From a virus: 52,626 nt of DNA. The DNA is taken from positions 1-52,626 of the IMG/VR virus record IMGVR_UViG_3300006790_000021; one strand, written 5' to 3'. The notes under the pieces were generated by a model, which was not told the DNA's origin, made no database searches, and saw only the letters and a program-made list of their open reading frames with translations. The translations under genes were made by a program, and so were the position numbers. Below are positions 4,011-52,626 of this stretch, piece by piece (position 1 is the stretch's first letter; every line of letters starts with the position of its first letter).

Positions 4011-4322
4011 TTAGAGTGTTACTACGCTTATATCAGCACCCTCCTTTACCAGTGCAACAGATACTACTCTATTATTAGCCAATTCGTAGTGAACTTGGAG
4101 TTTTTTATTATTTCTAGAATAGATGTGGGTACCGTCTAGTAAGAAACCGGGGGCACCTCCATTAATTCCAGCTACACCATTATTATTAGCATCTTCCATA
4201 TCTGACGCTAAATCTGTTAAAGTTATGTTTATCAAGTCCTGTACATTTCTTACTGCTTCTCTTGTGGTTATAAGATCAGAATAAGCCTGTACTAATGTGT
4301 TTATATTATCTACTATTGCCAT
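4011..4322 (-). CDS. Small appendage-associated protein, unknown
   Basis: A 103-residue protein. Residues 1-60 are probably helical (ALVQAYSDLITTREAVRNV, then LASDMEDA), followed by a short beta-rich end (IYSRNNKKLQVHYEL). It sits between two fibre genes with 11-30 nt gaps. The layout of a helical stalk followed by a small beta domain would suit a connector or short fibre. No family recognised. Confidence 0.55.
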   Translation of the reverse strand: MAIVDNINTLVQAYSDLITTREAVRNVQDLINITLTDLASDMEDANNNGVAGINGGAPGFLLDGTHIYSRNNKKLQVHYELANNRVVSVALVKEGADISVVTL

Positions 4323-4333
4323 GTTTTTATGTT

Positions 4334-15260: not shown

Positions 15261-15918
15261 GGTAAAGAAGGCCGTTCTTGGTACATGGTATGATATTATT
15301 ACAAGACAATGGAATATGGAAAGAATATTGGATGTAACTCTTGACGGAGTTATAAAAGAGTTTAAAAAAGGAACTGTGTATCCGCTCAAAAGACATATAT
15401 TCCGATCAATGTTAGAATGTTCCTATGATACTGTAAGAGTAGTGTTTATAGGACAAGATCCTTACCATGATGGCAAAGCTACCGGTCTTGCATTTGCTAA
15501 TGAAGAAGAGCCGCTAAGCCCCTCCTTGAGAATTCTTAAAGAAGAATGGGAGGATAACCAAAATGGCGGCACATTTGATCATACTTTAATATCATGGGCT
15601 CAACAAGGGGTACTGCTCCTTAATACAGCACTTACCGTAAGAGAAGGTGAACCCAAGAGTCATTTCCCAATTTGGGAACTATGGACTAAGAGATTTATAA
15701 GAAATCTCTCAAAGGAAAAATCTGACCTACTCTATGTAATGTTTGGAAAGAAAGCCCAGGCTTGGGAAGCCTATATAGAACATGGACATGTGCTTCATGT
15801 TGTACATCCCGCGGCTGAAACCTATGCGCAAGGTGGTGCAGGTTTCTATGGATGTAAGTTTTATGACAAAGTAAATAATCAATTGAAAACGCTTAATCAA
15901 GAACCTATTATATGGTAA
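15244..15918 (+). CDS. ung: Uracil-DNA glycosylase, family 1
   Basis: A 224-residue enzyme that removes uracil from DNA. Family 1 landmarks are present: water-activating Asp72 in GQDPYHDGKATGLAF, the LLLNTALTVREGEPKSH segment, and a variant of the leucine-loop motif starting at His188 (HPAAETY, where most enzymes have HPSPLS), followed by GAGFYGCKFYDK. Length equals that of cellular Ung. UDG is a regular crAss-like cassette gene. It lies between the primase (17 nt overlap) and the VWA-metallopeptidase (7 nt overlap). No dUTPase or thymidylate synthase gene is visible in the window. Confidence 0.95.
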   Translation: MKVSDKVKKAVLGTWYDIITRQWNMERILDVTLDGVIKEFKKGTVYPLKRHIFRSMLECSYDTVRVVFIGQDPYHDGKATGLAFANEEEPLSPSLRILKEEWEDNQNGGTFDHTLISWAQQGVLLLNTALTVREGEPKSHFPIWELWTKRFIRNLSKEKSDLLYVMFGKKAQAWEAYIEHGHVLHVVHPAAETYAQGGAGFYGCKFYDKVNNQLKTLNQEPIIW

Positions 15919-33600: not shown

Positions 33601-35896
33601 AAATAATCTCCTGCAGAATATCCGCATATGCCTCATCCAAAAGACTGTTGAACTCCTGTAGTTTGCTTTCTGCAGACATTTTTGAGGCTTTCTTCTCTTC
33701 AGTATCCTCTTCCATATCCTCTACAGTCTTCCGGAAGGCAACAGGAAAATCTTTGTACATCTCCATACGGGCCCTAACATTATTCAAACCGCCAGCTGTA
33801 AGACTTTTGACATCCTTTTTGATGGCCTTGGCAAAATCAATCAGACCTGTCAGCATGTTGTTGATCTCACCTTCAATAAGGATGTTAGAAAGATCGTTAT
33901 TGATCTGATCAAGCCTGTAGCGGATAAAGTCCCTCTCTTTTCCCGTAGCTTTGGTTGCTGCGGCCCTGAGTGATACCCGTTCGTTGTAAAGCTTATGCAG
34001 AAAATGACTCAGATCTGTATCTTCCGGAACCATCTCATGACTTACTGCCAGCTGACGTAACCATCTCAGGCGCATACCCGGATGGTTCATTTGAAGAGTG
34101 GTTATATTCTCGCCCGTATACTGTACATTTATAGGTATGATTCTTGACTGCCTGACTTGGAGATGACTCAGACCTAGAAAGTTCTTAATCATATCTGTAT
34201 ACAGAGAAAGCTGCCTGTCGTAAAGCTGGAGTTTTCTGTCATCAAAGTCAGGTCTCTGGAACTCTCTCTTTTTACCAGTCTTGTGAAGATTTACGTTCTT
34301 GTAGTCATAAATGGCTATAGATCCATCTCCATGAACAACAAGAACGTCTGCCGTACCCGCTACATTGTTGCGCTCATCGGGTATGAACTGTTCAGTAAGG
34401 ATTTTAGCATTGGCATCTCTCTCTTTGATACTCTGATAAAGGTGTCTTATACCCTTAAAAAGAACCCCAAGATGATCTTTACTTAAAGTAAAATAACTCT
34501 TGTCTTTACCTGCAAACTCTGGATGCTTACTTAGATGATTATAAACAGCATCTACATATTCCGTATGAACAAAATCAATCTTTTTCCCTGTTCTTTCAAC
34601 CTCAATAAAAGTATCCATGAGGAGCTTTTCATAAAAGTGAAGTATGGTGCCCTTAGTGGTAAAGAGCTCTTTAAGCTCGGGCGTAAATTCCGTGACACCC
34701 CCAAAGATGTCCTTCCGTAAAGTATTCACATAGTCTGAAGGGCGGTAGCGGTATATCTTTCCTCTGAATTTATACCGGTCTTTCTCCATAGTATGCCCTT
34801 CCTCATTGATGGATTCAAACTTCTCAAGTATAGCGTCCTGGGCTTCAGGGATATAATCAATCTTATACCAGGTTTCATCATCAAATGTAAAGTCCAGTTC
34901 CTTATTGGATTTTACTCCCAACTCATCCAGATCCATGTTCAGCACATTCCTGGCGGATGACCTGAAGAGATTGATGGCATTCCTGTTCTTTGAAAAGAGT
35001 CTTTTAAAGAAATCCAACACCAGCTCATACCAGGTCTTTGAGGTGGCCTCATCAGCTACAGTATCTGTAAGATAAGTCACAAGGGCTTCTTCAGCCAGCT
35101 TGGCATCAGTATAGTTATCATACTGAGAATACTCAGTTTTTACGGCCTCATAGACAGGAAGCTTTGTAACCTCAGTAATCATAGCGTTGTACCTGGCAGA
35201 ACCCCTCATCATAGAAACCATGACGTGCATGATCTCATGGGTCACATCCTTGGTATCGGCTTGACCATCAGCAAGTTTGATTATCTTATTGAGAATATCA
35301 GCCTGCCCAATTACGTCTTCCTGAAGCTCATCCGTCCACTCAGCCTGAATGTCCAGGGTACGCAAAAGCTGGGTATTAATGTTTCCAAGCTTCCAGTCCC
35401 GGAGAGAAACATCTTTGCTGCTTGCGTAGTAGGCCTCTTTAAACGGGTTGTAAAAGTTATCATTGACCGCAAGATAGTGTCTTCCATTAGGTGTGGTACC
35501 AACTCTTACACCTCTGATATTTTGTTCATTAAGGGCTTGTTTAATATCTTTCTCGGTAACCTCCGCAGGAAACAGCCCGTTCTCATCAGCCTGGAGCTGA
35601 CTGGCAAGGGCCTTTAGTTTACCGGTCTGATCGTCACTGAATCTGATCTCATCCACTACAGGAACAAAAAACCCTCTGGCATCTTCAAACACTGCCTCAC
35701 CATTTTCATCATATCTTCCCTGATAGTTCCCAATAAATTCCCCGGTGTAACTCTCAGACCATACTTCCAAGACCTGGTTTGGGGTAAGATCCTCATATTT
35801 GTTTTGAATCTCTCTGTAAAGATTTGAAGCCTTCATGTTGGGAGCTCTTACACTGGTAATTTCTCCCTTATTGTTATATGTGACTTGGCATCCCAT
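30659..35896 (-). CDS. Large virion protein with metallopeptidase and PD-(D/E)XK motifs
   Basis: A 1,745-residue protein, probably ejected with the DNA. The N-terminus (about residues 1-120) resembles the start of large polyvalent-type phage proteins. A zinc peptidase motif HEIMH lies at residues 220-224. A PD-(D/E)XK nuclease core follows, with GTAD (Asp517), IYDYKN (Asp531, Lys533) and a QLSLYTDMI helix, as in RecB/Cas4-type nucleases. The remaining 1,100 residues are helical, with weakly hydrophobic stretches near the C-terminus (VLLTLGAIALIRAAT). It shares an ATG/stop junction with the giant gene upstream (overlap at 35896). Domain motifs are solid; timing and targets are inferred. Confidence 0.75.
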   Translation of the reverse strand: MGCQVTYNNKGEITSVRAPNMKASNLYREIQNKYEDLTPNQVLEVWSESYTGEFIGNYQGRYDENGEAVFEDARGFFVPVVDEIRFSDDQTGKLKALASQLQADENGLFPAEVTEKDIKQALNEQNIRGVRVGTTPNGRHYLAVNDNFYNPFKEAYYASSKDVSLRDWKLGNINTQLLRTLDIQAEWTDELQEDVIGQADILNKIIKLADGQADTKDVTHEIMHVMVSMMRGSARYNAMITEVTKLPVYEAVKTEYSQYDNYTDAKLAEEALVTYLTDTVADEATSKTWYELVLDFFKRLFSKNRNAINLFRSSARNVLNMDLDELGVKSNKELDFTFDDETWYKIDYIPEAQDAILEKFESINEEGHTMEKDRYKFRGKIYRYRPSDYVNTLRKDIFGGVTEFTPELKELFTTKGTILHFYEKLLMDTFIEVERTGKKIDFVHTEYVDAVYNHLSKHPEFAGKDKSYFTLSKDHLGVLFKGIRHLYQSIKERDANAKILTEQFIPDERNNVAGTADVLVVHGDGSIAIYDYKNVNLHKTGKKREFQRPDFDDRKLQLYDRQLSLYTDMIKNFLGLSHLQVRQSRIIPINVQYTGENITTLQMNHPGMRLRWLRQLAVSHEMVPEDTDLSHFLHKLYNERVSLRAAATKATGKERDFIRYRLDQINNDLSNILIEGEINNMLTGLIDFAKAIKKDVKSLTAGGLNNVRARMEMYKDFPVAFRKTVEDMEEDTEEKKASKMSAESKLQEFNSLLDEAYADILQEIIYRGQQKFDPTGERSILEGGRGPGMISEMTEGLNRIDEPVTQTIFKMFREKAEEQRLLLLSYESEINKAYKEYKAWAIKQGYNAAGSGIYKPLIRRSKTHIGLVTPYTTTFYDKKQEIIDEQATKKSAGKSTAAEVLWMKEHMEFNSEKWSENLDAQKKRLKEMGTLTDKEINEKLSWYDRYNPTINESAWFRANNYYLKPKSWEDPAMKKWVAEDYKYIMANKPAKKYYEMYLKYNRIMMEMAGYDSVQPNFIPKIRADMVEKLSNWGEFGSHVKMGTVDILGPMQLREVGMLQGALDADGNPTNQIPILHTDDILEGVGDREIAEMKNTLVKEGYDKNTPEFENELDRRIYAKRKARGIDQTSQDLTASLKIMLDNVTRYRVMSDIEDEVVMLRSIMDTDQYTQIPTDNTGRRLYNLFSSEAQKRLGANLGMQGLLDTFINAHMYGRRTQGKDGVVYIAGKPYSAKQLVDKLHELLSLSSIALNPIIASANWTNALVNSRIQGRRGRYYTRQNWKESIDEIATVSDKVLTAMWYFEPSSKNMQRDRAVRSRTGVLNRLTSGRFAYILHRGTINQYGASKVKQQLADAGYLTPDNPYFGDDAVGRTVLISMMKTWVLDVDGKVKNPHDPFHKIEDPEAKSLWELFQHENLIENFDPDTIPVEGLTKEELARFRAIVLKAQAEIKGSTSPWDYSRADSHIVGQLLKKFRDWIPPMAAARFESLRYDPLLDTYTQGYLKGTWNDLIGQGTSQLIAEEEMVEVRKIYYFWKYYAGPTLARFGKLLGETIGMGMWTPYSNNIDEKRARFAYDRIIAENPEINLKKFTFEAFLDFKRNQVKAAATEVRYVLLTLGAIALIRAATDWDEDDNRNALTRYIYRMIVRTNLELTFWFDPQSVYTLIRSPLPVLRLFTDLHKALGNFMMESAEGIGLLPENRRDKTPFFYYTLKNFPFINQILSTIGYFPSYKGRDSFISRYFEERVLK

Positions 35897-38800
35897 TAGC
35901 TGCAGGGTAATAGTGCCTCACGGATTGTCCTGCGGGCATAGTTAATGAATTCCTGGGTCATACCTGTTTGTCGGTTTCCTGCAAAATTGATGACCTCAGG
36001 TTTATAGTCAGCGATAAAGTCCCTAAGTTCTTGGGTGTCTGGGTTTATAATCAACGGCCTGTTCATTTTTTCAGCCTCCTGTATGGTAAGTTTTGTACCA
36101 GGACTGTTCCGGTTCTGAGCAAAAATGACTGTTACGTCAGAATTCTCAATATTTCTTATTGTCCTTAGCCGATAAGCTTCTGCAGCATTTTTTGCGTAGG
36201 GCCCTTCAACCAGTCCATACTTCTCAAGATCAGACTTTCTGGGACCACGTTCAGTTCTCCACCCATAAGGAGCAGTACCTCCGGTTTCATATCCAAGACT
36301 ATCTGCAATCTCAAGAGAATCCATGTCAATACCCCATTGTCCGCCGGCTATTACTTTTTTAATACTCACACGTTTTCCTGATTTAAGTTGTTCAAGTTTT
36401 TCTATTCTTCTTGGCCTGTTGCTCAGAGGGTGGATTTCCCGGTTATTTGTACCTGTCTCGGTATCCTTATCCGTGAAAATGCTTGGCGCCGTACTATTGT
36501 AATCTTTCAGCGAGGCGTATGTTTTGAAGTCTAAAGTTGGATAAGGTGGAGTCCTTGAATCTTTTTTCTTTTCTTTTCTCAGGTAGATCTCCTTACCGTT
36601 CACATAATACTTGCGTAAGCCCCCCATGGTTTTTACCATGAACGGATAGGCGTCATTCTCCTTCATTGAAGAGATAGTTCTCTTACTGGCAACCCATCTA
36701 AAGATACGATTATCCCTGTTATTGAGGGCAAACTGATCAAAGAACCAATACATGTTTTTGGTCTTGGTATCGCCCTCTCTAGGCATAAATGCTTTCAGAG
36801 CATTAATCATCCCTACATCCTGATCTCCAGCAAATATCTCATTGGGGACAATCCTGAGGAAGTTTGCGGGACTCTCTGTTGTACCTGCCTGAAGCATCAG
36901 AAACTTGAACAGATCTTTGGAATATTCCGGGAATTGCTCATGAAGCTCCCTCCAGGCATCTGTGTACATCTCAAGCTCCATTGGATTCACTTTTTTGCCA
37001 GAGAACCCTTTCAGGGTCATGTTGTCAATATAATGTCCCGGAATATGGGTCTTGTTTCTCAGATGAGGTACAAAATTATCTATAAGATAGTTAGATTTCT
37101 TCAATAGTTTCTTGAGTTCCTTAGTCCTTCTTGGTATAGTGTTGTTTATCTTTTTATGATCAAACTTCCCGGTTACCGGATTTGCCTCATATGTCTCAAT
37201 AAGACTGCGCTCATCAAGAAATAACCTCCTATCTCCATAATAAGAATGATAAATTGCTGTTGCCAGCTCACTCCTGAACCTGTCAAGCACGCCAATCTGG
37301 TCATCAAAGGACATAAACTCCTTGCCTCTTATCATGGGGGCTATGAGGTTATCCTTGATCATCCTTACAATACTGTCATTATTCATGAAGGTATGGAAAG
37401 GTGTCAGGATCTTGATTGACTCCTGTACGGCTCTGCGGTGGGGAGCAAGAAAACCCCCATCCTTAAAGAGTCTGTTATAGTTTACAAACCTTACCTCTTC
37501 CGGGCCCCTGGTGATTAAATCTTCAGTCATTTCATTAAGGAGCATTGCAGACAATATGTTCTTACCACCATGCTTTGTATTATAAGTGGAAGCCTGTATG
37601 TACTTAAAGTAATCACTGGCCAGATCTTTAAGCTGAAGATATTTTACAAGGGCTGAATACTGTACAGCATGGTCCCACTCACCCGTATCCATGAACAGGG
37701 GGTTTCCTGCACTATCCGGCACAAAAGGAATAGTAGCCTGTCTCCAGAGCTTATTTGTATTTGCTATGTGTTTGGAATCATATGATACCTTGTAGTCCCT
37801 GCGATAGCTCTCTTTATACTTTCTGGTAAACTCTGCTGGCCCCATAACAGCAGTTGAGCCTTCTTTTCTCAGGGCATTAAAATAGGCGCTCTTTTCTACA
37901 TCCAGACGACTACTGTAATGCTTTATCAAAGGCTGATTCATCAAGGCAATCAGATAGTCCGCAGGTACACCTAGGCTAAGCATCATGGCAAATATGGTTG
38001 CATTCTCTCCACTACCACCAATCTCATGAATAAATGGGTCATTGGGACTATCCGCATATGCAGAGACCAGCTCATTTATAAGATCAGATATATAGTATTT
38101 ACTGCTACTGTCTTTTAGACCGGCAAAGCTTGGGTAGCTTGTATCCGTTTTGTCTGTATAGATGTTGTAAGGAATATCAAGATTTATGTTATCTATGTAT
38201 ACATTGGCTTGTGCAAAATTAATATGAGCTGTGGCCGCCAGAGCGCCGATACTAATGTTCTGCTTAGCGGTTTGAAGCTCATAACCCTTTTTTTGCATAT
38301 ATACTGGGTTGCCAACCTGATATAGGGCGTTTTCATATCTCTTTTTAGCAGCATAAAAGTCATCGCCAAGATATTCTTTCAGTCTCTTCTCACGTTCTTC
38401 AAGCAGCCTGTTACCTGTATCCTTGAGAACGGATACACCTTCATCAATAGTGACTGGTGCATTGAGTTCTCCAAACCTCTCAGGCTTCAGGAGGAGAGTG
38501 CGCTGCAGTTCTATCTTGAGATTGTCCAGGCGCTCATGACCGTTCTTCAGATCAATGGGCAACTCCTGCCACATGGATCTATATTTCTTATAAAGTTCTC
38601 TCAGCTGGGCATCCCTTTCTTCTTTGAGAGCTTTGATGTCTTCAACTCTTTGAGTAAAAGTTTCCCGGACCTCCTCCATTGCGATAACTGCACTCTCAAT
38701 GTTGAGCTGGGATTCCTGGAGAAATTCTTTCCGGTCCCAGATAAAATCCCACACTCCTGAAAGCGCATTCTTTACGTCTTTGGGGAGTTTTGAGGTAAAT

Positions 38801-41800
38801 CCCTCATCACCTATAGCTTTGAGCACAGTTTCATATTGTGTCTGTTTATCCGCAATCATGTCCACAAGGGCACCATAATATGCATCCTGGATCTCCAGGT
38901 ATTCATCTGTTGCAAAGTTAGTAGTGAAGGATCTTTTTCTCTTTTCCCATAACTCTTCCTCATCAGTTAGATATTCTGCATACTTGACCTCACCGTCCAC
39001 TATCTCATAGTTGGGAAGATTTACAAAGAGTTTGTCAAAGTCAAAGTCGGCGCCGGTCTTGGTTACAATCTCACTGGGAACAATCACAATATCATTAGCA
39101 GTAACAGGCAGAAAATCCTTTACAATGATGCTTTCCAGAGAGGACAGGGCCTGAGTGGGAATCCTGAACCCAAGTATCTTTGTCAATCTGGGATCAATAT
39201 CTTTGATATTTACTTCTTTACCATACATCTCTTCAAACCAATGGGGCATATAGACCTCCATACTGATAATCTTTCCCTGATCATTGGTATAGGTTTTCAG
39301 ATCTGAAGCCTGGTAACTGATTTTATCATCCTCCTCATTATAATAATAAGGGGCCCTCTTTAACTCCATAAGAGTAGAAGGCATCAACATCAGGTTTTTC
39401 CCCTTAACTTTCCTGTTGGTGGTACTTGAGCTGATAAGACTTCTCAATATGATTTCTACATCCTGGCTGTTGACCATGGCGTCTGTTCCGTACTGCAGCC
39501 AGCGGATAGATTCCAGCATGTTGGCTGAGGTGTTCCTCTGTTTGCTCAGTTTCCGGTACAACCAGTTTTTTGCCCGTTCAATCTTGTTGTTGTCCACCCT
39601 ATAACCAACAACCTCGCCATTGTCTGTTACAGCCTGCAATCCAAGCTTTTCCTTGGCCAACATCAAGCCGTATTCTATATTGGCTCCTTCAATTTCTCTC
39701 AGCCTTGATACCATCCTGTGGATAGGAGACCTGGTTTTTTTCTGATACTCATCAAGGGAATTCCATTGATTTATTGCTTCCTGATAGTTTACTGTCCCTG
39801 CAGGAGGCATGACCTTTTCCTTAATTCCCCTGATATCTATTGTAGGGAGACCCAATATCCTGCGAATCTTGACAATATTGTAGAGAGCTTCATTGAGAAG
39901 TTCTGCACCCAACTGGTAGTCAGTCATATCAGGATCGCCAAGAATCTCTTTGTATGTATTGTTAGGATCCCCCTCAAAAGCCAGCTTGGCTTCATCAAGC
40001 AAACCCTTCTGAATATCATAGGCTTTTTTTACATCCTCAAAGGGTCTGTCAACGGTAATCCGCTCACCAAGGTCAAAAGTGCTGAGATAGATTTTCTCAC
40101 TCTTATATGCAGGAAACCGGTCAATTTTTGCCGGAGCCACTGCCTGGTCAAAAGGTACTTTGGCCGGGATCTCCCGATATCCTGAGAGAAAGTCCACAGG
40201 TACACCCTGCTCATAAAGATCACTTTCTATATGGCGTTCTTTCTGAGTACCCTGAGATGATTCATTCTTGAAGTTTGGCGCATTGGCCACCTGTATCCCA
40301 ATATACTGCCAGGGTAAAGCATCATTTATAAAAGGATTACTATTCAGGTTACCATATGGATCATATAAGTTTGACGGTGTACCATAACCCGGCTCAAGCG
40401 GTGTACCCGTCTTGGAACCGGTATGGAATATGGTAAGGCCGGTACCGTCATTCTTGGCTTTTTCAGCAAGCTGTTCCAGTGCCGTACCCTGGATAAGCTC
40501 CGGTATAAGCGGTGTAGCAGCAAACTTGAGCATGTTGATCATATTTGCAGACACATTGGGGCCAAAGGCCTGAGGCTTTGTAGGTGGCAATAAATAACCG
40601 GGCTGTTCTACCATTTTACGGGTAATGGTTTTCCCTTGAAGCTCAACAAAGGGATTGTCTTTTCCAATTGTTACCTTTTCTCCTTTCCAACCCCCTTGCA
40701 TTTGCCATTGCCACGAGGCTTCTCTTTTATAGTCCCAGTCCCCTGAACGGATGTGGAGTATCCTGTAAGCCTCCATAGTCCAATATCCATGAGCATCAGA
40801 CTCAACTATACTCTCATAAAGCTTGGCCTTCCTCTTTCCATATTCCTCACCAAATCTCTCAATCAGAGCCTCTTCAAGAGTATTATATACGTCTGCAGAT
40901 GTGAACATCTCTACACCCTGCGGCTTGTATACGTAATCATTCTTGCCAACAGTTACACGGTCTTCTTTAGCCAGAGCCTCCCAGATCTTTTGGTTATCTT
41001 CAGCCTTTATGGATACACCCTCTCTTCCCAAATACTCACCAACCAGGACTATAGCCTTTCTGGGATTTTTGGCAGACTCAATTTTTATAGATTTCTTTTT
41101 AGAATTATAGAGCACTGTTCCAGCCTCTTTTCCCTTATAACCCATCATAAACACCCGGTCATGTTCACCCTTACCCAAGTACGGGCTTTCAGAGATGATT
41201 CCGTAATCCTTGCCTTGGCTTGGAAGCATAAACAAATAATCGTGTACCGGTTTAAGAAACCTTGAGCTTGCTACAATAGGGTCTTCAACATAGGCTACCC
41301 CTAAGTAAGGATCACCATCAGTTTTGAATTTCTTCTCCAGATACTCATTGCTTCTGGGATCAACCATGCTGAGAGTTTTGGGACCCACTGCTCCACTTAA
41401 ACGCTTGACCATATCATCCAGATTCTTGTATTGGGCCGGATGACCTGTGAATATCTTAGTCTGCTCTATGGAACTTTTTAGATAGCTTATTGTAATGAAG
41501 CTGGCCAGTTCCTCTTCACTCATGTCACTCCACAAAGTGTTCTTGCCAAGAAAACCCAATTCCTGGACCCGGTACTTGCGTAGCGTAGGTATCACGTCAG
41601 AGTATATGATACCGTTGAAAGAATACTGAAGAGCCTTGATTACCTCACTATCGTTGATGAATATTCCCTGGCGGGTTGCAAGATCACCACTGCTTGTCAA
41701 AAAGTTCAGAATCCTGTTCTCCGCCATTTCCGTACCGGAAGTAACCATGGACATCACAATCCCGGAATAGTTCTTTATGTTCTCCGTATAGTTTTTCCAG

Positions 41801-44800
41801 TTCTCAGTCATTTGTGGCCTCTTGCTTATGGCATCATCAAGGAAGGCCAGCTCATCTTTCAGGTATTCCTGGAGCTTACTGATTACAGCCTCCGGCGTGG
41901 CAACCTCTGTAGGATATTCAAGGTAATCCGTAGATACGCTCATATCCTCAATTATATTGCCTTCTTCATCTGTAGCAGCTCCCACATCGGCTGAATTAGC
42001 CAGGGTGAATGTTCTTTCAATAGAGTTGTCTGCAGGCCGCAAGATGTGGTACACGCCCCGCGTAAGATCAAGGATCTCCTTTATAAACCTGTCAGGTTCC
42101 CGGAGCTTTTTGAACTCAGTATTATTGTTGTTACTATTGATACCTTCTTCAATCCCGGTAACAATTCTGTTACCTCCCGCAATATGATCAAGAATCTTTG
42201 AAGTTCTGTAATATGGATGCCTGTAGTGAGGAAACTTCTCATAAATCTTTTCTCTCCCCTGCTCAAGCGTATAACCAGTATCCTCGTTGTTTACCCTTCT
42301 GATTTCATCAGCTACAGTATTAAGGCCGGCTACGGTGTAATAGTAGTAGCTATACTCAAGAATATCATATACGCTGTTCCCTTCGGGATTATAATGAGAT
42401 CCTTCACTATATTCAGGACTTCTTATAAACTCAATATTAACCATGGAATTTACGTCTCCCTGGCCTCTCAGATCTGTATAGGGATTATACTTTTTGCTTT
42501 TATAGAGATTGTTTGCAATGTGACTCATTTTTTTAGTCACAATATTTTTAAGAGAATCCGGAAGCATATAGACATCCCCCTCTTTCATCTTTATACTCGG
42601 GATCTCCATACCTATAGCCTCTGCGGTCTTAATCGCATCCTCAAAGGAAAAACCTTCATTGTTGGCTATAGTACTCCTTACATCTTTTGGGAGCTTGGGC
42701 TGATAGTTACCTTCCCAGGCATTTCTGATCTGTCTTTTAAGATTAGCATCATTGGTACGGGCCCGGTAGATCTTAGATCCCTGAGCAACATCTATGTTGT
42801 AGTTTTCATAATACTTGGCAAAGGTCTGGAAAAAAGCAGCCCTTCTCATGTACTGGGCCGCATCAAGCTCATCAATAGGCTTTTTCAGGGCAACCCCGTC
42901 AAGAGCAAAATCCTTGAAAGCCTCATTCAATCCGGGATGGTGGACTATGATTTCCTGAAACTTCACAATCTGATCCTCAATATCGGTAGTATTTGCCAGC
43001 GTTTTTGCTACAATTCCAAAAGCATTTGGCAGACCTTTTCTAAATCCATTAGAAGTAGTCTCACTTCTTCCGGTTGCTTTACCGCGATCTATCACCCCGC
43101 TAAGCCAGAACCTGACAGAGTTTGGTGCACTCATGAAAAGACTTTTCCTGGTTGTTTCTTCAGCCCACTTATTGTCGGGGTCAGTGAGAGTCTCCAGCTC
43201 ATCTATAGTCTCTTCCTCAACATCAATTTTGAGGGTCCGCATATATTCACTATGAAGCCTTACCCAGGATTTATTTGTCTCTGAACTATAAAAGCTTTCC
43301 AGGTCTTTCTCAAAGCTTTCCGCATAGTTCATCATCTCCGCAATATGATTGTTGACAACCTTTACGGTTCTTTCCGGAATGTCCCTCTTCTTCACTCTTC
43401 TTTCAAGAGCTTTTGCCATCTGGTCCGCCTTGGAGTAATACTCAGCAATGTCCTGACCTATCTTATCATAAACCCTGTCATATATCTGTTTGAACTGTCT
43501 TGGAGTAAGACCATCTGTAGTAATCACGTTACGTAATCCGGACTCACGTACAGCATCCAGAAAATGCAGATGTAGATGGGTTACAGCTTCTTTGGTGTAC
43601 TGTACCGTCCTGTCAGGGAGTCTCATTGAAATGTCCCTGTTGAGGGGTTCTGTAAGCTCATGAAGCCGGGAATAGTCTGGAGTCATGTGAGCATAATATC
43701 CATTACTGATGCGCTCAAAAGTTCTTTTGATTCTTGTATCCAGACCAAAATATGTCCTGATAAAATCAAGGAGTCTGGTGAACCAGTTACGGATTGGCTT
43801 GGCTTCAGGAAGCTGGCCAGTCAGCACGTACATCCTAAATAGTTCAGCCAGACCCTCTTCAGCTTGCCGGTCAGTCATGTTCTTGTTCCCATACCTCTTT
43901 CTGTACTCATTGTACATTCTTCTGGCCTCGGGCTCTGTCATGAATAGATATGAAGTAGCGTGATAGGCCTCATGGTATAGGGTCCCCTCTTCAGCGGCAC
44001 TATCAAGGAGAACCCTGCCAAACTCGGTAAACCTCCCCATGGCACCCTGCTTCATCAAGTCATGAACAACCTCAATATCAACCTCAGGGAATCTTATCTT
44101 AAACCAGGCAACAGTCTGCTCTATGTTCTCCGGTATATAGTTAGAAGATGATAGCAACTCTACACTGCGGGATAACCCCGGAGGGACTCCCTCTTTACCA
44201 AGAAAATCACTAAGCAGATCATCATCAGTTTTGGGTGAGGTTTTGCTGTCCTGATTAGACCCGGCAACCTCTGTCCGCCACTGTTCAAAATAAATTAACG
44301 TATTCCTTTCTGTATCCTCCTCACTGCCTTTGGGTATTTGTTTGTAATACCAGTCATAAAATTCTGGAGGAATTTTTCCAGAAGTTTCTACCGGCTGCTC
44401 CACCGGAGCTTTCTTTACAGAAGGTTTTCCAAGCTTCTCCCATTCAGCGTGATAGAGCAGCACATTCAGCTCAGTGTACTCTTCATTATTTTCTTTAAGC
44501 TTCTGATTAAACCACTCTAAAAACTCAGGGGGCCACTCATGTTTTTCCCCCTGGTTCCTGAAAACAGAACCACTATCTACCGGATTTCCCCCCTTACCCT
44601 TGTTACTCTTTTTGTTTGTAACCTGCTTACCAACATCTACGGTCTTATTGACAGCATTTGTTGCCTTCTCTTTTATCTTCTTCCATTTTCCTTTTTGACG
44701 TGAACCTTCTTTAGAAGTAGTGGGTTCCACCTTGGGAATTTTTTCACTTGGAGGCTCAGGCTTACCCGTACTGTAATCACTATATTCAAACATCAGGTTT

Positions 44801-47800
44801 GCGTTCCACACCTGCGGAAGCTCCACACTGGGATCATAGGCCGGGGCATTGGTAGTCAGAATATCCCGGTTGGGATCAAGCAACCAGTCGCTATACTTTT
44901 GCCTTGTGTTTACATAATCAAATGCGCCTCTGTCAGGATAGTAGGTTATATAGTTGTAGTTTTTAGTGGCTTTTGATGCCAGGAACTCCGAATTGATATT
45001 ATACTTCTGGGCACGGATCCAGTCCTTGACCTGTTCTTCAGTAAGAGTGTCTATGTCATACGTGTTCTCCCCATCCTTATTCCCGTCCAAGGCTTCAAGA
45101 TAGAGATGCATCTTCTTGTTGATTCTTTTGGCATAGGCTACTCCACCCCTGTTAGTCCCATCAGCCTCTCTCCAGTGAATATAGTGTTTAAGAGCCTCTT
45201 CATATGTTCTGTTGAGTTTGCCCCCAATCTTGCTGTCATACCCTTTTGGGGCCCTAGCTCCCTGCATGAGAAGCTGGTAGACGGTTTCTATCTCATTATC
45301 CCTGTTTATAGCTCTTTTGTCTGCCTGGAACACTTTACCAGAGGCCTCATCTATCATGTAGGTAAAGCCCTGGTTGAAGAGTATCTGCCTCCCCTGAAGG
45401 TTTACATGGAAAGGTAGACCTACAATAATGCGTGCCTGTTTGCGGTTTTTGGCGGCACTCCCTATCGGTATGACGGTACCTGAGTCAATAGTAACCCCAA
45501 ATGATTTTGAGATAACCGGTATAAACACATCCACCGGCTTTCCCCCAATACCCCTTAATTTTTTTGTAATCTCATCATGATAATACTCATACCTTTGGGT
45601 TTCTCCTTTTATTTGATCCAGCTGGTTTTTATCATGCATTACCCTCTTACGGGCCTTGTCCCCATCAGGCTCCATCATTGAAGAAAACAACCCAAGAGAC
45701 GGTACTTGTTCTTTTTTTATGGTATTTAGCTCGGGATCTACATACTGCCCCTTCTCATTCACAACAACAGCATAAAGACTATCTCTGAGGACCTGTCTTA
45801 AGGGGGCGTCAAGATCAAACTCCGCACGCTGTACTTGCTGTTTTATCCATTCAGAAGCGCCGCTGGTGGGGTCAGGTGTGAAGGCAGACAAATCACTATC
45901 ATACCCAAATACTTCTTTGTTGAACTGGTCAATGGACTCAACCTCATTTAGAGACCCTAAATAAGGATGCTCATCTACTGGTTCATTCTTTTTGTCAATA
46001 GCGTGATCCCAATCCAGAGTTCTATCCAGAAAATCTACATATCTCTTTAGCCGGCCACTCCCATAATTATTGTTGATCTCATCAAGAGTGCCTTTCACAA
46101 ACCACCCGTCCTTACCCATTCCAAAAAAAGGATACCATTTGCCGGTCTGTTTACCACTGGTGCCTTTGCTGCTCCTATAAAAGGGTATAGGCTTGCCGTC
46201 AACATCAATAACAATAGGGTATCTGCCATTGACATGCATTGTGGTCTTTTTCCTGATGATCCCAAAATGTTCAAGCTGTTCTACCCTCCGGTCATAATCA
46301 AGATTCTTTACAAGATTATGTATGGTGTCCAAATTTATGATATCTGCCGGTTTCTTTTTAGCACCTTCAGTCATCCGTTCGCGCTCATTCTGGGGCACAA
46401 ACATGTCCAGGTGGTCTCTTATGATCTCACCATTATTATCCACTACTGAAAAAAGCTTCAGGTAAAGCTTTTGCCCATAGATCTTGTTTGAATCTACAAA
46501 CTTGAAGAACCTCTTTTGTGCAGGATTTTCCGTAAGCTGTTCAACATGCTTTTTGGTTACCGGATCAACTTTCCTGTGGGAACCATATAGTGTTCTGAAA
46601 ACATGGACTGCATATTTGGCCCACCCGGATTCCTTGTCAAAAGTAGTCTTACCGTTTATAGGATTGTCCACAGTAGGCATCAGAACGTCTGACTCACCTT
46701 CTGCGCGTGAGGTCTTGTTCATGTTCTTGAACAAAAGAGGATGATCATCTATAGCCGCAATTTCCTCTTCAGTATCTGATAATCTGGCCTCCTGTTCTGC
46801 AAGCCTGTTCTGAAGATCTTTCAGTTTATCATCACTCTCTCCAGGATTTTCAGTAAGCTTCTTCTGCTCAATCTCAATCTCCCGCTCAAGTTTTGCTATT
46901 TCTGAAATAGCGGTCTCTCTCTCACCAGACAGGCGTTTTAGTTCCGCACCCTTGAATACCTGGTCCATGAGTATCTCATGCTGTGTGGTATCAAGCGTAT
47001 CCATACTGTTGTTCCACAGATAGTCAAGCAGCTGGGCCTGAGAAAAACCCTCGCCATCATTATCCACCATATTTGTTTCACGGATATTATTGATAGCATC
47101 CTTATGCTTCTCATACATTTCCTGCTCAACCTTGCTTAGTTTTTGCTTGGTTGCAACTTTTCGGGCAATATTCACTCTTCTTTCCGGAGAAATACTCCCA
47201 TCACCACGGAACATATCAGCCTCATCATGAGAAACAGGCTTATCCTCAACAGTCAGCTGGTCTGTACGCTCAAGTATAAACCTGTCCGGATCCCGGGCAG
47301 CTTTCACCTCAAACTGGTTAAACTCGTTCCCAACCTTTACCCCCGGACCAATATAACCCCCAGCAGCAGAAAGCCAACCTTCTCTTTCTTTTCCTACAAG
47401 CTCATTCTGATTTCTCAAATATTGCCTGATACCTTTCTCTGTAGAAAGATCTTTAAGAAGATCTATCTTTTCTTCTTTGTCTAGTCTAAGATCCTCTTGC
47501 CTAAGAACAAGCTCCTGCAATTTCTCATCCTGAGTGGTTTTTAGCTTGTCCTCTATGTTGGAGACGTCCACACCTTCATCTTCCAGGCGTTTCAGTTCCT
47601 GTTCATACTCTTTTATCTTTTGCTGTTGCCAGTTACGTGTCTCTGTAGAAACTCCCTCAATGGTTCCAGCTGCCGTTGCAAGATCACTTATATTTTCATT
47701 GACAGCATCCATTATGGTTTTGCGGCGATAAAGCTCCTCATACCTCCTGTCAAATCCGGGAGCATCCTCTATAATTTTTTCAAACTGCTCATTATAATGC

Positions 47801-49323
47801 TGCTGAAGCCTCTCATCCATCTTCAGCATAAATCGGTTCCCCACCTTAACAGCTCTCAGGAAAGAAGCGGGATCCTTAATGTTCTCAAACTTCTCCCCAC
47901 GGGTGTAGTCAGGCCTTACTTGTTCTTCATTGTAGATTTCCTCAAACTCGGGAATTATCTCCAAAGCTTCCTTGGCTCTTGAAACAGGACCCTCATGCTC
48001 AGGATTATCTTCATATTCCTCAATATAAGCATTGAGGATAGTTTCCATATCCCCCATTCTGCCTTGACCGGCAAAATGGATAGCATTACCCATGAATCTT
48101 TTACCATCTAGGTACTGGTTTTCTCCTTCAGACAACATCTCGTGGGTTTGAGATCTTAGTCTTTCCTCATACTCCTGGCTGTATTTTGGGGGAGACTTGA
48201 CAGCTCTACTAAGTGTATTTACCACAACAGGAGCCACTGCTCCACCAAGCGCACCAAGAATCACACTCGTCCAGAGTTCAGAATCCTTTAAATAGTTATC
48301 AACCCTGTTCAAAAAGTTCTTACCAAAAAATCCAAGAGGGCCGGGACCCTCACCTTTATAAGTAGCATACTCTGCCTCCTTCTGGGCAAGGGTTTGGAAA
48401 CCCTCTTCCCCGCCTTCTGTAACCATCTGAAAGGCAACGTCTCCGGCTCTTCTCCATTTTGAGGGCTTATCGGCAGCCCTTGAAAAAAGTTTCTTTAAAC
48501 CGGAAGCGCCTGGTCTCAGCAAATGACCAAACTGGAGTACATCCACAAAGAACAATGCGGCGTTATCCCTGTAGTTCTTTGCCGCTGCTGCAGCTGCCTC
48601 CTCATGACTATGCCCTTGCCTTATAAGATCATCGTAGAGCCCATAACTCTCCATCATACCCTCTGAGTGCCGGGATACCGTTGCTCCGGCAATACCACCT
48701 ATGAGTCTTTGCATATTTGCACCGGCACCCATAGTTTTTGCAGCCAAGCCTCCAATTCTCCCCACAAAACCCGCAGGAATAAGCAACCCGATAAAACTAC
48801 CAAGACTGCCAATATTCTGAGCCAGCCACCTACCATTTCCTATATTTCCGCTACGGGGAGTATCATAAATCTTTAATCCATCTTCTCTTACCCAGTTTTT
48901 TATATCCCGGCTGGCTCCATGGACGAACTCCCCTATCTGATCTATCATAGTATCATCAAGAAATTCAATACCTTGATCTACCAGATCCCTGAAAAATCCT
49001 TCTCCAATCAGATCTCCCAAGACCGTACCTGGCTTGACCCAAGGTTCCATCCAGGAAGTTATGTCGGCCGTATAACCTATAGCCTCAGTAAGACCAAAAA
49101 CAGCCTCTGAGCCTATCTGCCCAAAAGCATTTACAAGCAGTTCAAGATCCCCCTGGTTTCTTGCAGGAAAATATTCAGGGTGGTGTTTACCAGGAATATA
49201 CCCCTTGTAATGCCTGCTTAGGCGCTGGTTCCCAAAAGTGGGCATAGGGCTGGGTATCCTCTTTTCCGGTTTGACAAGAGTGGGCCCAAAGATTCCCTGT
49301 TCTATGACTGGAGGTTTGCTCAT
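35896..49323 (-). CDS. Giant virion protein: ejection domain, metallopeptidase, RNA polymerase, SLOG
   Basis: 4,475 residues. N-terminal third: Gly-rich hydrophobic segments (171-215, about 350-375), long charged coiled coils, and a basic linker near 1540. Two tandem 54-residue repeats start at Pro1598 and Pro1652 (PPEFLEW / PPEFYDW). A zinc peptidase motif HEAYH is at 1784-1788. The crAss-like virion RNA polymerase follows: a first barrel with HTGSKTGT (Lys2971) and the catalytic TGADFDFDKLF with Asp3426, Asp3428 and Asp3430. From 4320 comes a SLOG/YpsA-like nucleotide-binding domain: IAGGQWGIDMDS (from 4325), GYETGGTAP, and NSPGTKLTI. In crAss-like phages this polymerase travels in the virion and transcribes early genes. 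Fusion to SLOG is unexpected. Confidence 0.88.
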   Translation of the reverse strand: MSKPPVIEQGIFGPTLVKPEKRIPSPMPTFGNQRLSRHYKGYIPGKHHPEYFPARNQGDLELLVNAFGQIGSEAVFGLTEAIGYTADITSWMEPWVKPGTVLGDLIGEGFFRDLVDQGIEFLDDTMIDQIGEFVHGASRDIKNWVREDGLKIYDTPRSGNIGNGRWLAQNIGSLGSFIGLLIPAGFVGRIGGLAAKTMGAGANMQRLIGGIAGATVSRHSEGMMESYGLYDDLIRQGHSHEEAAAAAAKNYRDNAALFFVDVLQFGHLLRPGASGLKKLFSRAADKPSKWRRAGDVAFQMVTEGGEEGFQTLAQKEAEYATYKGEGPGPLGFFGKNFLNRVDNYLKDSELWTSVILGALGGAVAPVVVNTLSRAVKSPPKYSQEYEERLRSQTHEMLSEGENQYLDGKRFMGNAIHFAGQGRMGDMETILNAYIEEYEDNPEHEGPVSRAKEALEIIPEFEEIYNEEQVRPDYTRGEKFENIKDPASFLRAVKVGNRFMLKMDERLQQHYNEQFEKIIEDAPGFDRRYEELYRRKTIMDAVNENISDLATAAGTIEGVSTETRNWQQQKIKEYEQELKRLEDEGVDVSNIEDKLKTTQDEKLQELVLRQEDLRLDKEEKIDLLKDLSTEKGIRQYLRNQNELVGKEREGWLSAAGGYIGPGVKVGNEFNQFEVKAARDPDRFILERTDQLTVEDKPVSHDEADMFRGDGSISPERRVNIARKVATKQKLSKVEQEMYEKHKDAINNIRETNMVDNDGEGFSQAQLLDYLWNNSMDTLDTTQHEILMDQVFKGAELKRLSGERETAISEIAKLEREIEIEQKKLTENPGESDDKLKDLQNRLAEQEARLSDTEEEIAAIDDHPLLFKNMNKTSRAEGESDVLMPTVDNPINGKTTFDKESGWAKYAVHVFRTLYGSHRKVDPVTKKHVEQLTENPAQKRFFKFVDSNKIYGQKLYLKLFSVVDNNGEIIRDHLDMFVPQNERERMTEGAKKKPADIINLDTIHNLVKNLDYDRRVEQLEHFGIIRKKTTMHVNGRYPIVIDVDGKPIPFYRSSKGTSGKQTGKWYPFFGMGKDGWFVKGTLDEINNNYGSGRLKRYVDFLDRTLDWDHAIDKKNEPVDEHPYLGSLNEVESIDQFNKEVFGYDSDLSAFTPDPTSGASEWIKQQVQRAEFDLDAPLRQVLRDSLYAVVVNEKGQYVDPELNTIKKEQVPSLGLFSSMMEPDGDKARKRVMHDKNQLDQIKGETQRYEYYHDEITKKLRGIGGKPVDVFIPVISKSFGVTIDSGTVIPIGSAAKNRKQARIIVGLPFHVNLQGRQILFNQGFTYMIDEASGKVFQADKRAINRDNEIETVYQLLMQGARAPKGYDSKIGGKLNRTYEEALKHYIHWREADGTNRGGVAYAKRINKKMHLYLEALDGNKDGENTYDIDTLTEEQVKDWIRAQKYNINSEFLASKATKNYNYITYYPDRGAFDYVNTRQKYSDWLLDPNRDILTTNAPAYDPSVELPQVWNANLMFEYSDYSTGKPEPPSEKIPKVEPTTSKEGSRQKGKWKKIKEKATNAVNKTVDVGKQVTNKKSNKGKGGNPVDSGSVFRNQGEKHEWPPEFLEWFNQKLKENNEEYTELNVLLYHAEWEKLGKPSVKKAPVEQPVETSGKIPPEFYDWYYKQIPKGSEEDTERNTLIYFEQWRTEVAGSNQDSKTSPKTDDDLLSDFLGKEGVPPGLSRSVELLSSSNYIPENIEQTVAWFKIRFPEVDIEVVHDLMKQGAMGRFTEFGRVLLDSAAEEGTLYHEAYHATSYLFMTEPEARRMYNEYRKRYGNKNMTDRQAEEGLAELFRMYVLTGQLPEAKPIRNWFTRLLDFIRTYFGLDTRIKRTFERISNGYYAHMTPDYSRLHELTEPLNRDISMRLPDRTVQYTKEAVTHLHLHFLDAVRESGLRNVITTDGLTPRQFKQIYDRVYDKIGQDIAEYYSKADQMAKALERRVKKRDIPERTVKVVNNHIAEMMNYAESFEKDLESFYSSETNKSWVRLHSEYMRTLKIDVEEETIDELETLTDPDNKWAEETTRKSLFMSAPNSVRFWLSGVIDRGKATGRSETTSNGFRKGLPNAFGIVAKTLANTTDIEDQIVKFQEIIVHHPGLNEAFKDFALDGVALKKPIDELDAAQYMRRAAFFQTFAKYYENYNIDVAQGSKIYRARTNDANLKRQIRNAWEGNYQPKLPKDVRSTIANNEGFSFEDAIKTAEAIGMEIPSIKMKEGDVYMLPDSLKNIVTKKMSHIANNLYKSKKYNPYTDLRGQGDVNSMVNIEFIRSPEYSEGSHYNPEGNSVYDILEYSYYYYTVAGLNTVADEIRRVNNEDTGYTLEQGREKIYEKFPHYRHPYYRTSKILDHIAGGNRIVTGIEEGINSNNNNTEFKKLREPDRFIKEILDLTRGVYHILRPADNSIERTFTLANSADVGAATDEEGNIIEDMSVSTDYLEYPTEVATPEAVISKLQEYLKDELAFLDDAISKRPQMTENWKNYTENIKNYSGIVMSMVTSGTEMAENRILNFLTSSGDLATRQGIFINDSEVIKALQYSFNGIIYSDVIPTLRKYRVQELGFLGKNTLWSDMSEEELASFITISYLKSSIEQTKIFTGHPAQYKNLDDMVKRLSGAVGPKTLSMVDPRSNEYLEKKFKTDGDPYLGVAYVEDPIVASSRFLKPVHDYLFMLPSQGKDYGIISESPYLGKGEHDRVFMMGYKGKEAGTVLYNSKKKSIKIESAKNPRKAIVLVGEYLGREGVSIKAEDNQKIWEALAKEDRVTVGKNDYVYKPQGVEMFTSADVYNTLEEALIERFGEEYGKRKAKLYESIVESDAHGYWTMEAYRILHIRSGDWDYKREASWQWQMQGGWKGEKVTIGKDNPFVELQGKTITRKMVEQPGYLLPPTKPQAFGPNVSANMINMLKFAATPLIPELIQGTALEQLAEKAKNDGTGLTIFHTGSKTGTPLEPGYGTPSNLYDPYGNLNSNPFINDALPWQYIGIQVANAPNFKNESSQGTQKERHIESDLYEQGVPVDFLSGYREIPAKVPFDQAVAPAKIDRFPAYKSEKIYLSTFDLGERITVDRPFEDVKKAYDIQKGLLDEAKLAFEGDPNNTYKEILGDPDMTDYQLGAELLNEALYNIVKIRRILGLPTIDIRGIKEKVMPPAGTVNYQEAINQWNSLDEYQKKTRSPIHRMVSRLREIEGANIEYGLMLAKEKLGLQAVTDNGEVVGYRVDNNKIERAKNWLYRKLSKQRNTSANMLESIRWLQYGTDAMVNSQDVEIILRSLISSSTTNRKVKGKNLMLMPSTLMELKRAPYYYNEEDDKISYQASDLKTYTNDQGKIISMEVYMPHWFEEMYGKEVNIKDIDPRLTKILGFRIPTQALSSLESIIVKDFLPVTANDIVIVPSEIVTKTGADFDFDKLFVNLPNYEIVDGEVKYAEYLTDEEELWEKRKRSFTTNFATDEYLEIQDAYYGALVDMIADKQTQYETVLKAIGDEGFTSKLPKDVKNALSGVWDFIWDRKEFLQESQLNIESAVIAMEEVRETFTQRVEDIKALKEERDAQLRELYKKYRSMWQELPIDLKNGHERLDNLKIELQRTLLLKPERFGELNAPVTIDEGVSVLKDTGNRLLEEREKRLKEYLGDDFYAAKKRYENALYQVGNPVYMQKKGYELQTAKQNISIGALAATAHINFAQANVYIDNINLDIPYNIYTDKTDTSYPSFAGLKDSSSKYYISDLINELVSAYADSPNDPFIHEIGGSGENATIFAMMLSLGVPADYLIALMNQPLIKHYSSRLDVEKSAYFNALRKEGSTAVMGPAEFTRKYKESYRRDYKVSYDSKHIANTNKLWRQATIPFVPDSAGNPLFMDTGEWDHAVQYSALVKYLQLKDLASDYFKYIQASTYNTKHGGKNILSAMLLNEMTEDLITRGPEEVRFVNYNRLFKDGGFLAPHRRAVQESIKILTPFHTFMNNDSIVRMIKDNLIAPMIRGKEFMSFDDQIGVLDRFRSELATAIYHSYYGDRRLFLDERSLIETYEANPVTGKFDHKKINNTIPRRTKELKKLLKKSNYLIDNFVPHLRNKTHIPGHYIDNMTLKGFSGKKVNPMELEMYTDAWRELHEQFPEYSKDLFKFLMLQAGTTESPANFLRIVPNEIFAGDQDVGMINALKAFMPREGDTKTKNMYWFFDQFALNNRDNRIFRWVASKRTISSMKENDAYPFMVKTMGGLRKYYVNGKEIYLRKEKKKDSRTPPYPTLDFKTYASLKDYNSTAPSIFTDKDTETGTNNREIHPLSNRPRRIEKLEQLKSGKRVSIKKVIAGGQWGIDMDSLEIADSLGYETGGTAPYGWRTERGPRKSDLEKYGLVEGPYAKNAAEAYRLRTIRNIENSDVTVIFAQNRNSPGTKLTIQEAEKMNRPLIINPDTQELRDFIADYKPEVINFAGNRQTGMTQEFINYARRTIREALLPCS

Positions 49324-52235: not shown

Positions 52236-52237
52236 TA

Positions 52238-52626
52238 TTATATAGGTTCGTATCCTCCTTTTCCTTGTGATCCTCCTCTTGGGTTCCACCACCATCCAGG
52301 ATAGGAACCAGTATTGACTTCAAAATTAGGAGGTACATTATTTCCACCCCAACTAGAACTATTTGGATCAAAATCAATATTCCCAGCTTGAGAATTCTGC
52401 GAACTTACACCTTTAATTCCGGAATAAATATTTCCAATACCCTGAAAAGCCCTACTCGCAGTATCAGCATAAGTTTGACTGATGTTATTGAGCGCACTGG
52501 TTGTCTGGTTACGTGCCGCCATTTTAGAGGCAAGAGCACTACCCCCAATAGTATCCATATTCTGGAGATAACCCTGACCAACGGTACCCATACCCTGGAA
52601 CAGACCTTGAGAAAGCTGATTACTCA
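52238..52626 (-). CDS. Gly/Ser/Asn-rich virion-region protein, 5' end outside window
   Basis: The open frame runs from a stop at 52238-52240 through the window edge, so its start is outside. The readable part is rich in Gly, Gln, Ser and Asn (TIGGSALASKMAARNQTTSA), with a helical N-terminal part and a C-terminal Pro/Trp/Gly patch (PGWWWNPRGGSQGKGG). An internal ATG at 52591 would give 117 residues. It is located just upstream of the internal virion protein gene and is probably structural. Not recognised. Confidence 0.55.
   Translation of the reverse strand, partial: SNQLSQGLFQGMGTVGQGYLQNMDTIGGSALASKMAARNQTTSALNNISQTYADTASRAFQGIGNIYSGIKGVSSQNSQAGNIDFDPNSSSWGGNNVPPNFEVNTGSYPGWWWNPRGGSQGKGGYEPI

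Follow-up and report, generated by a model that had tools for sequence, protein, structure and literature searches.

Virion RNA Polymerases and SLOG Domains

No viruses of the human gut are more abundant than the crAss-like phages, whose escape from the immunity of Bacteroides is, to our knowledge, largely unexplained. Two of these phages, phi14:2 and crAss001, are known to package a giant virion RNA polymerase (vRNAP) that is active after ejection (PMC10136315, PMC10172136). The phi14:2 enzyme produces the early transcripts (PMC10136315) and its record g066 is annotated as structural from tandem mass spectrometry. Likewise, mass spectrometry of crAss001 virions detected gp47, gp49 and gp50 (PMC10172136). 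SLOG domains are known from another context: that of ThsA, a defence protein, binds 3' cyclic ADP-ribose (3'cADPR; PMC11204291), and the viral YpsA-like SLOGs were argued by Iyer et al. to counter signals derived from ADP-ribose (ADPr; PMC9503650). The two meet in the virus record IMGVR_UViG_3300006790_000021, whose 52,626 nucleotides (positions 1 to 52,626) are here called the window: its crAss-like vRNAP ends with a SLOG domain of the circularly permuted YpsA-like branch (cpYpsA). It should be emphasized that "crAss-like", for the window as well as for the contigs cited below, is derived solely from the vRNAP core and the gene order. The features on which the argument turns are the following.

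35896..49323, minus strand: open reading frame (ORF) of the giant crAss-like vRNAP, 4475 residues in a single open frame, with an RNA polymerase (RNAP) core matching the structure 6vr4
about 35914..36372, minus strand: cpYpsA SLOG domain, residues about 4318-4470, supported by PF12694, 3imk and AlphaFold
35902..35904, minus strand: Cys4474, penultimate residue and sole cysteine of the 4475, within the conserved cysteine tail of crAss-like vRNAPs

The cpYpsA Domain of the Window

The C-terminal 155 residues or so of the window vRNAP form a complete cpYpsA domain. An earlier note, made from the sequence alone, had listed five motifs in a given order at the end of this ORF and attributed them to a YpsA-related SLOG. 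All five are present, VSIKKVIAGGQWGIDMDSLEIADSLGYETGGTAPYGWRTERGP being followed by AEAYRLRTIRNIENSDVTVIFAQNRNSPGTKLTIQEAEKMNRPLIINP, then by EVINFAGNRQTGM and finally by REALLPCS and the stop, and the attribution holds, narrowed now to the permuted branch. Indeed, the Pfam family PF12694, entitled "circularly permutated YpsA SLOG family", matches with an E value of 2.5e-20 (73.1 bits for a cut-off of 26.2, profile positions 1-129 out of 145), and a six-frame search places this match at 35962-36354 on the minus strand. A profile built from 36 relatives, window excluded, gives the window 162.5 bits (E 3e-52), the top score for 2000 shuffles of the window's letters being 7.9 bits. The permuted motif order is kept (GGQxGxD, GG..P.G, RT..N, SD.T, G..LT, VLNVAGNR), and the domain can be regarded as complete because it reaches the last V-x-N-x-A-G-N-R motif. 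All the family-invariant columns of a 37-member alignment are retained (15/15) and therefore, judging from the sequence, the capacity to bind a ligand is probably intact.

LOG phosphoribohydrolases are recognized by the signature PGGxGTxxE, which includes a catalytic Glu. The window has SPGTKLT, with a Thr at the place of this Glu, as in most members of the family; this favours binding, or a chemistry unlike that of LOG.

The sole relative by sequence in PDB is 3imk, from Syntrophus aciditrophicus (E 7.6e-32 with the 37-member profile). The structure prediction and comparison proposed by the earlier note lead to the same protein: AlphaFold, used with the 36 relatives, yields a predicted local distance difference test score (pLDDT) of 93.8 and a predicted template modelling score of 0.86, only the first 20 residues, a linker, being at a pLDDT of about 70, and 3imk is the closest solved structure according to Foldseek (E 4.4e-10, template modelling scores 0.72/0.79). 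Foldseek also matches viral DprA- and SLOG-like models, as well as fragments of giant proteins from the gut phages cr130_1 (E 2.5e-5) and cr10_1, a first hint of related domains in named crAss phages.

The fusion to a crAss-like vRNAP is as the earlier note had stated, and it is in frame. The core of the window protein matches 6vr4, the structure of the phi14:2 vRNAP gp66 (E 7.4e-12); the residues around 3426 (TKTGADFDFDKLFV) align to those of gp66 (TKTGSDFDIDKMYV), DFDFDK lying opposite DFDIDK, and a tblastn search with the core region matched 93 phage records, almost all crAss-like. Neither a stop nor a frameshift lies between the core and the SLOG, and the same layout of the vRNAP end is found in unrelated contigs. 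The SLOG part has a G+C content of 0.442, versus 0.436 for the remaining ORF, and a third-position G+C of 0.369, slightly below the 0.443 found elsewhere in the ORF.

Recurrence of the Permuted Form

When 2.9 million viral contigs were scanned with an alignment of four SLOG sequences, 80 loci emerged, and in 23 of them the domain lies within an ORF of more than 700 residues. According to an RNAP-core profile, nine of these 23 records have a crAss-type core. SLOG and core share an ORF in six of them (G001, G002, G007, G011, G012, G014), and the SLOG is in the ORF immediately preceding the vRNAP in the three others (G006, G008, G009). A second scan revealed further fusions in L292, L296, L314 and L322. 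Altogether, cpYpsA and the RNAP core are in one ORF in 11 contigs (the window, L014, L015, L020, L028, L031, L038, L292, L296, L314 and L322). The SLOG is C-terminal to the core in nine of them and N-terminal in two (L020, L314); in L015 it lies mid-protein. Three more contigs (L019, L021, L022) carry it in an adjoining protein of the cargo region. The earlier note knew of no description of such a fusion, and none was found among 5.39 million open-access papers; but the fusion is no isolated case, since it recurs in two topologies and at several positions.

Eight of the ten vRNAP-linked cpYpsA domains compared group together regardless of the end that they occupy (support of 89 in the approximate likelihood ratio test SH-aLRT; 83/83 in a smaller tree, in which one other sequence joins them), the tree being weak with its roughly 150 columns. 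The window and L015 fall outside this group, and no other copy diverges as much as that of the window, whose end branch measures 1.2-1.27. One origin for all these domains is unsupported, as none of 200 bootstrap trees needs one change only; acquisition on more than one occasion appears likely from these sequences but is not proven. A close copy of a bacterial gene was also considered for the window domain and rejected: no close cellular relative was found, the best one being at 45%.

Giant SLOG proteins devoid of RNAP resemble polyvalent proteins (LPD38, DUF4326, GNAT, YAcAr, DUF7831). In addition, the 3107-residue ORF of L060 contains GGADLDGDK about 40 residues before its cpYpsA domain, around residue 1144, and its sequence may be that of a different polymerase-like protein with a SLOG adjoining the metal motif.

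Non-Permuted SLOGs and Natural Pairs

Assignments of the non-permuted form are profile matches. A permuted profile finds such a SLOG in cr10_1 (E 1.3e-10), directly before the cysteine tail, and in L168/L170 the halves of the PF12694 model match in swapped order, which is that of YpsA, and are followed by a NADAR domain. Profile-profile comparison ties the two forms together (A6-A9, E 8.6e-16; A9-3imk, E 4.3e-13 in two stretches). A contig scan for the non-permuted form gave 26 loci. In sixteen of them (14 distinct) it shares an ORF with an RNAP core, mostly at a position just before the cysteine tail. One virus, G006 (L107/L108), has two SLOGs, a cpYpsA ending the cargo-region protein upstream and a weakly matching non-permuted one in the vRNAP itself (E 2.4e-6). 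A stand-alone homologue (37%) is gp146 of the Vibrio phage ICP1 (L357, 2471-3010), encoded just after the accessory helicase gene helA; ICP1 is a tractable phage for studying the function of this homologue.

Besides gp146, a tblastn search with the cr10_1 SLOG reached, at 59%, five cultured phages, PhiCrAssBcn1, 2, 3, 20 and 25, which are 5 of the 25 Bcn isolates and carry the non-permuted domain near the N-terminus of their vRNAP. The domain is absent from the vRNAP of crAss001, tikkala and eleven Bcn phages, and in Bcn4-12 and cr112_1 a different sequence takes up the site that it occupies in PhiCrAssBcn2. The vRNAPs of PhiCrAssBcn2 (2608 residues) and tikkala (2412 residues) are 98.9% identical outside a 196-residue SLOG insertion after residue 79; with crAss001 the identity is 99.1%, insertion aside. 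The domain is gained and lost as a module. All the Bcn phages grow on a single host strain, Bacteroides intestinalis DSM 108646, and the paper that describes them, in which their RNA polymerase is said to be "only slightly variable", is silent on the domain (PMC10354031).

The sequences present at this same site in PhiCrAssBcn6 (L358) and cr112_1 (L359) are two unrelated inserts, at about residues 60-210 of the vRNAP, for which Pfam gave no match. The one in cr112_1 contains a GSNPEGRHGAGAAK motif. Identification of this insert as DUF7831 was tried and rejected, as there was no match to this family.

Other Guests and the Cysteine Tail

Pfam was used to search 65 vRNAP C-terminal regions gathered irrespective of the presence of a SLOG. 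They hold domains of the superfamily 1 (SF1) helicase type (six), NADAR (three), AlkB-like 2-oxoglutarate-Fe(II) oxygenase (three), DUF7831 (three) and SLOG (one). Guests also come combined, as SLOG with NADAR (L168), with DUF7831 (L296) or with RNase H (L322). Nucleotide- and NAD-type domains are among the company of the SLOG. NADAR, AlkB-like oxygenase and SF1 helicase domains appended to vRNAP C-termini can be seen in L168/L170 and L194.

These guests lie between the polymerase body and a cysteine tail of which we know of no description. Among 61 distinct vRNAP ORFs of more than 2000 residues (L120-L199), 58 have a Cys among their final 8 residues, and it is the only one of the protein in 20; all their other cysteines amount to 50 in 234,733 residues. 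The tail may serve for anchoring, packaging or processing, and a protein nearly free of cysteine would be well suited to crossing while partly unfolded. Some adjoining cargo-region proteins also end with a Cys (G006, G007, G008, G012).

In L003 (cr108_1), the vRNAP frame is broken inside the catalytic motif (15597-15888), the first ORF ending with AKAGSD; the two ORFs are about 290 bases apart, in an intron-like manner.

Neighbouring Features

The other features of the vRNAP gene and its surroundings are as follows.

39034..39048, minus strand: DFDFD at residues 3426-3430, the metal-binding motif in the RNAP active site
43960..43974, minus strand: zincin-like motif HEAYH at residues 1784-1788, within the N-terminal half of the fusion
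35894..35898, minus strand: TAATG in which the vRNAP stop overlaps the start codon of the following gene
30659..35896, minus strand: downstream ORF of 1745 residues, which gene order alone places as the counterpart of the RNAP-associated cargo protein (phi14:2 g065 / crAss001 gp49)
49320..52295, minus strand: upstream ORF of 991 residues, with an ATGA overlap with the vRNAP start, which gene order alone places as a virion structural protein

The ATGA is shared by the vRNAP start and the stop of the preceding gene (49320-49323). The HEAYH region aligns with other crAss-like giant proteins, and gp45 of Carjivirus is annotated as "RNAP associated protein fused to zincin protease". The window has a SLOG, an RNAP core and a zincin-like motif in a single ORF, a layout that would be of the polyvalent type if the protein is injected. 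Pfam and PHROG searches gave no match for the downstream 1745-residue ORF. The window also encodes a DNA polymerase (phrog_1252), DnaB, Sak4, AAA and VWA genes and, at the contig end (809-1774), a subtilisin-type protease ORF (Peptidase_S8, E 6e-49). Single-sequence queries of IMG/VR did not find close relatives of the window virus.

Proposed Role and Alternatives

The earlier note had proposed that the domain senses or processes a host nucleotide signal, or tunes early transcription, and such roles are inferred. As a whole, the observations are best explained by a delivered effector acting on a nucleotide signal of host immunity, to which a probability of about 0.5 can be given. In this reading, the folded cpYpsA domain is tethered through a flexible linker to the vRNAP body, ahead of the conserved C-terminal cysteine, and belongs to a set of interchangeable accessory domains grafted onto the polymerase or the adjoining cargo protein. 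Carried in the virion, it would arrive in the cell together with the polymerase, ahead of any phage gene expression. There, its target could be an immune signal of the host, of the adenine-nucleotide or ADP-ribose type, such as the cyclic ADP-ribose isomers of Thoeris, which it would bind and might also cleave, and host defence would be blunted as a result. The ligand and the anti-defence effect are putative, and packaging and delivery are predicted for the window virus by analogy with the virions of phi14:2 and crAss001.

Several observations weigh against the effector. The SLOG is one among several interchangeable vRNAP guests and a rare one, as indicated by the Pfam counts in the C-terminal regions and by the 80 vRNAP records nearest the window, among which only two near-copies had it. 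Helicases and AlkB-like domains in the same place suggest that some slots are devoted to handling nucleic acids and not to immunity. Furthermore, PADLOC gave no match, and no ligand or activity was found for any cpYpsA protein, 3imk being named only "putative molybdenum carrier".

Among the alternatives, the domain could be a helper of early transcription that plays no part in immunity, for instance a LOG-like phosphoribohydrolase, a salvage enzyme or a DprA-like binder of single-stranded DNA. Its weak profile similarity to DprA (E 0.001) and the helicase, RNase H and AlkB-like domains held by comparable slots agree with this role, but the Thr that replaces Glu in SPGTKLT does not fit LOG, and NADAR and DUF4326, the recurrent partners of the family, indicate small molecules of the ADPr type (PMC9503650). 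On balance, a helper of this kind seems unlikely.

The SLOG could also be a regulatory sensor that binds a cellular nucleotide (NAD, a ppGpp-like molecule or an alarm signal of the host) and turns the attached polymerase on or off, thereby timing early transcription. Its covalent attachment to the polymerase speaks for such a sensor, and regulation by a sensor was suggested by Iyer et al. for SLOG fusions to nucleic-acid enzymes (PMC9503650). However, an allosteric switch would be expected to hold its position, whereas the SLOG is C-terminal, N-terminal (L020, L314, PhiCrAssBcn), mid-protein (L015) or in an adjoining protein (L019, L021, L022), comes in two circular permutations and is missing from 99%-identical polymerases, which have unrelated inserts instead. 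Because of these shifting positions, two topologies and unrelated replacement domains, the mobility of the SLOG favours a delivered effector over a regulator of the polymerase, and the latter is rather improbable.

The divergence of the window copy, and the W and M that its first loop (GGQWGIDM) has instead of the usual T and R, could be those of a domain gained by horizontal transfer and now without function, a passive spacer or remnant that is tolerated at the end of the protein. Yet the frame is open, the invariant residues are all kept, GGQWG is shared with L030 and L049, and SLOG fusions recur independently in many lineages, all of which makes a remnant quite improbable. Lastly, an artefact (frameshift, chimera, assembly join or separate gene read through), for which no supporting point was found, is refuted by the recurrence of the fusion, with an equal architecture in many independent contigs and named phages, and by the single frame and TAATG coupling of the window, and has next to no probability.

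The delivered effector can be extended, more tentatively and at somewhat less than even odds, to the polymerase as a whole. The vRNAP would then be a general injection chassis whose hypervariable end slots, mostly between the polymerase body and the near-universal Cys or near the N-terminus, would carry interchangeable counter-defence domains, the SLOGs disarming ADP-ribose-type immune signals at the onset of infection. The guests of these slots would be cpYpsA and YpsA SLOGs, NADAR, DUF7831, AlkB-like, RNase H and helicase domains. The wider pattern, in which crAss-like vRNAPs would carry swappable effector domains, is a more interesting result than a single fusion. It indicates a possible site of counter-defence functions overlooked by annotation because they are hidden in giants called "RNA polymerase" or "hypothetical"; if so carried, these functions would arrive with the polymerase, before the readout of phage genes. 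Since the SLOG-bearing PhiCrAssBcn1, 2, 3, 20 and 25, on the one hand, and crAss001 and most Bcn isolates, on the other hand, form a natural pair with and without the domain, with about 99% identity elsewhere and, for the Bcn phages, one host strain, the question is directly testable and the uncultured window virus needs no engineering.

Comparison with Known Systems

The window domain matches PF12694 and 3imk in fold, in motif order and in all invariant residues, and departs from the family in the W and M of its first loop. Furthermore, the known cellular members of PF12694 are mostly small stand-alone proteins, whereas the window copy ends a 4475-residue vRNAP. Phi14:2 gp66 (6vr4) and crAss001 gp50 have in common with the window protein the RNAP core with its DFDxDK and YRIPTQ motifs, the row of giant cargo genes and the C-terminal cysteine tail. 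Both lack a SLOG, unlike PhiCrAssBcn1, 2, 3, 20 and 25, close kin of crAss001, which have the non-permuted form.

ThsA of Thoeris (PMC11204291), with its SIR2-SLOG architecture, shares the Rossmann-like domain of the SLOG superfamily and points to a candidate class of ligands. However, ThsA acts as an effector of the host and contains a SIR2 NADase, whereas the phage domain has no SIR2 and stands on the attacker's side.

The viral SLOGs of Iyer et al. 2022 (PMC9503650) likewise belong to a YpsA-like clade, occur in tailed phages and lie beside NADAR and DUF4326. They are typically stand-alone, with sporadic fusions to helix-turn-helix, HNH, exonuclease, helicase or guanylate kinase domains, and the text mentions neither a fusion to a virion polymerase nor crAss-like phages. 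The polyvalent proteins (Iyer et al. 2017, PMC5512222), in a text that mentions neither SLOG nor NADAR, are likewise giant proteins of the virion type with mixed, swappable enzymatic domains used just after injection; the chassis differs, being here the crAss-like RNA polymerase itself. The vRNAP-SLOG pattern thus extends two known kinds, the viral SLOG fusions and the polyvalent proteins.

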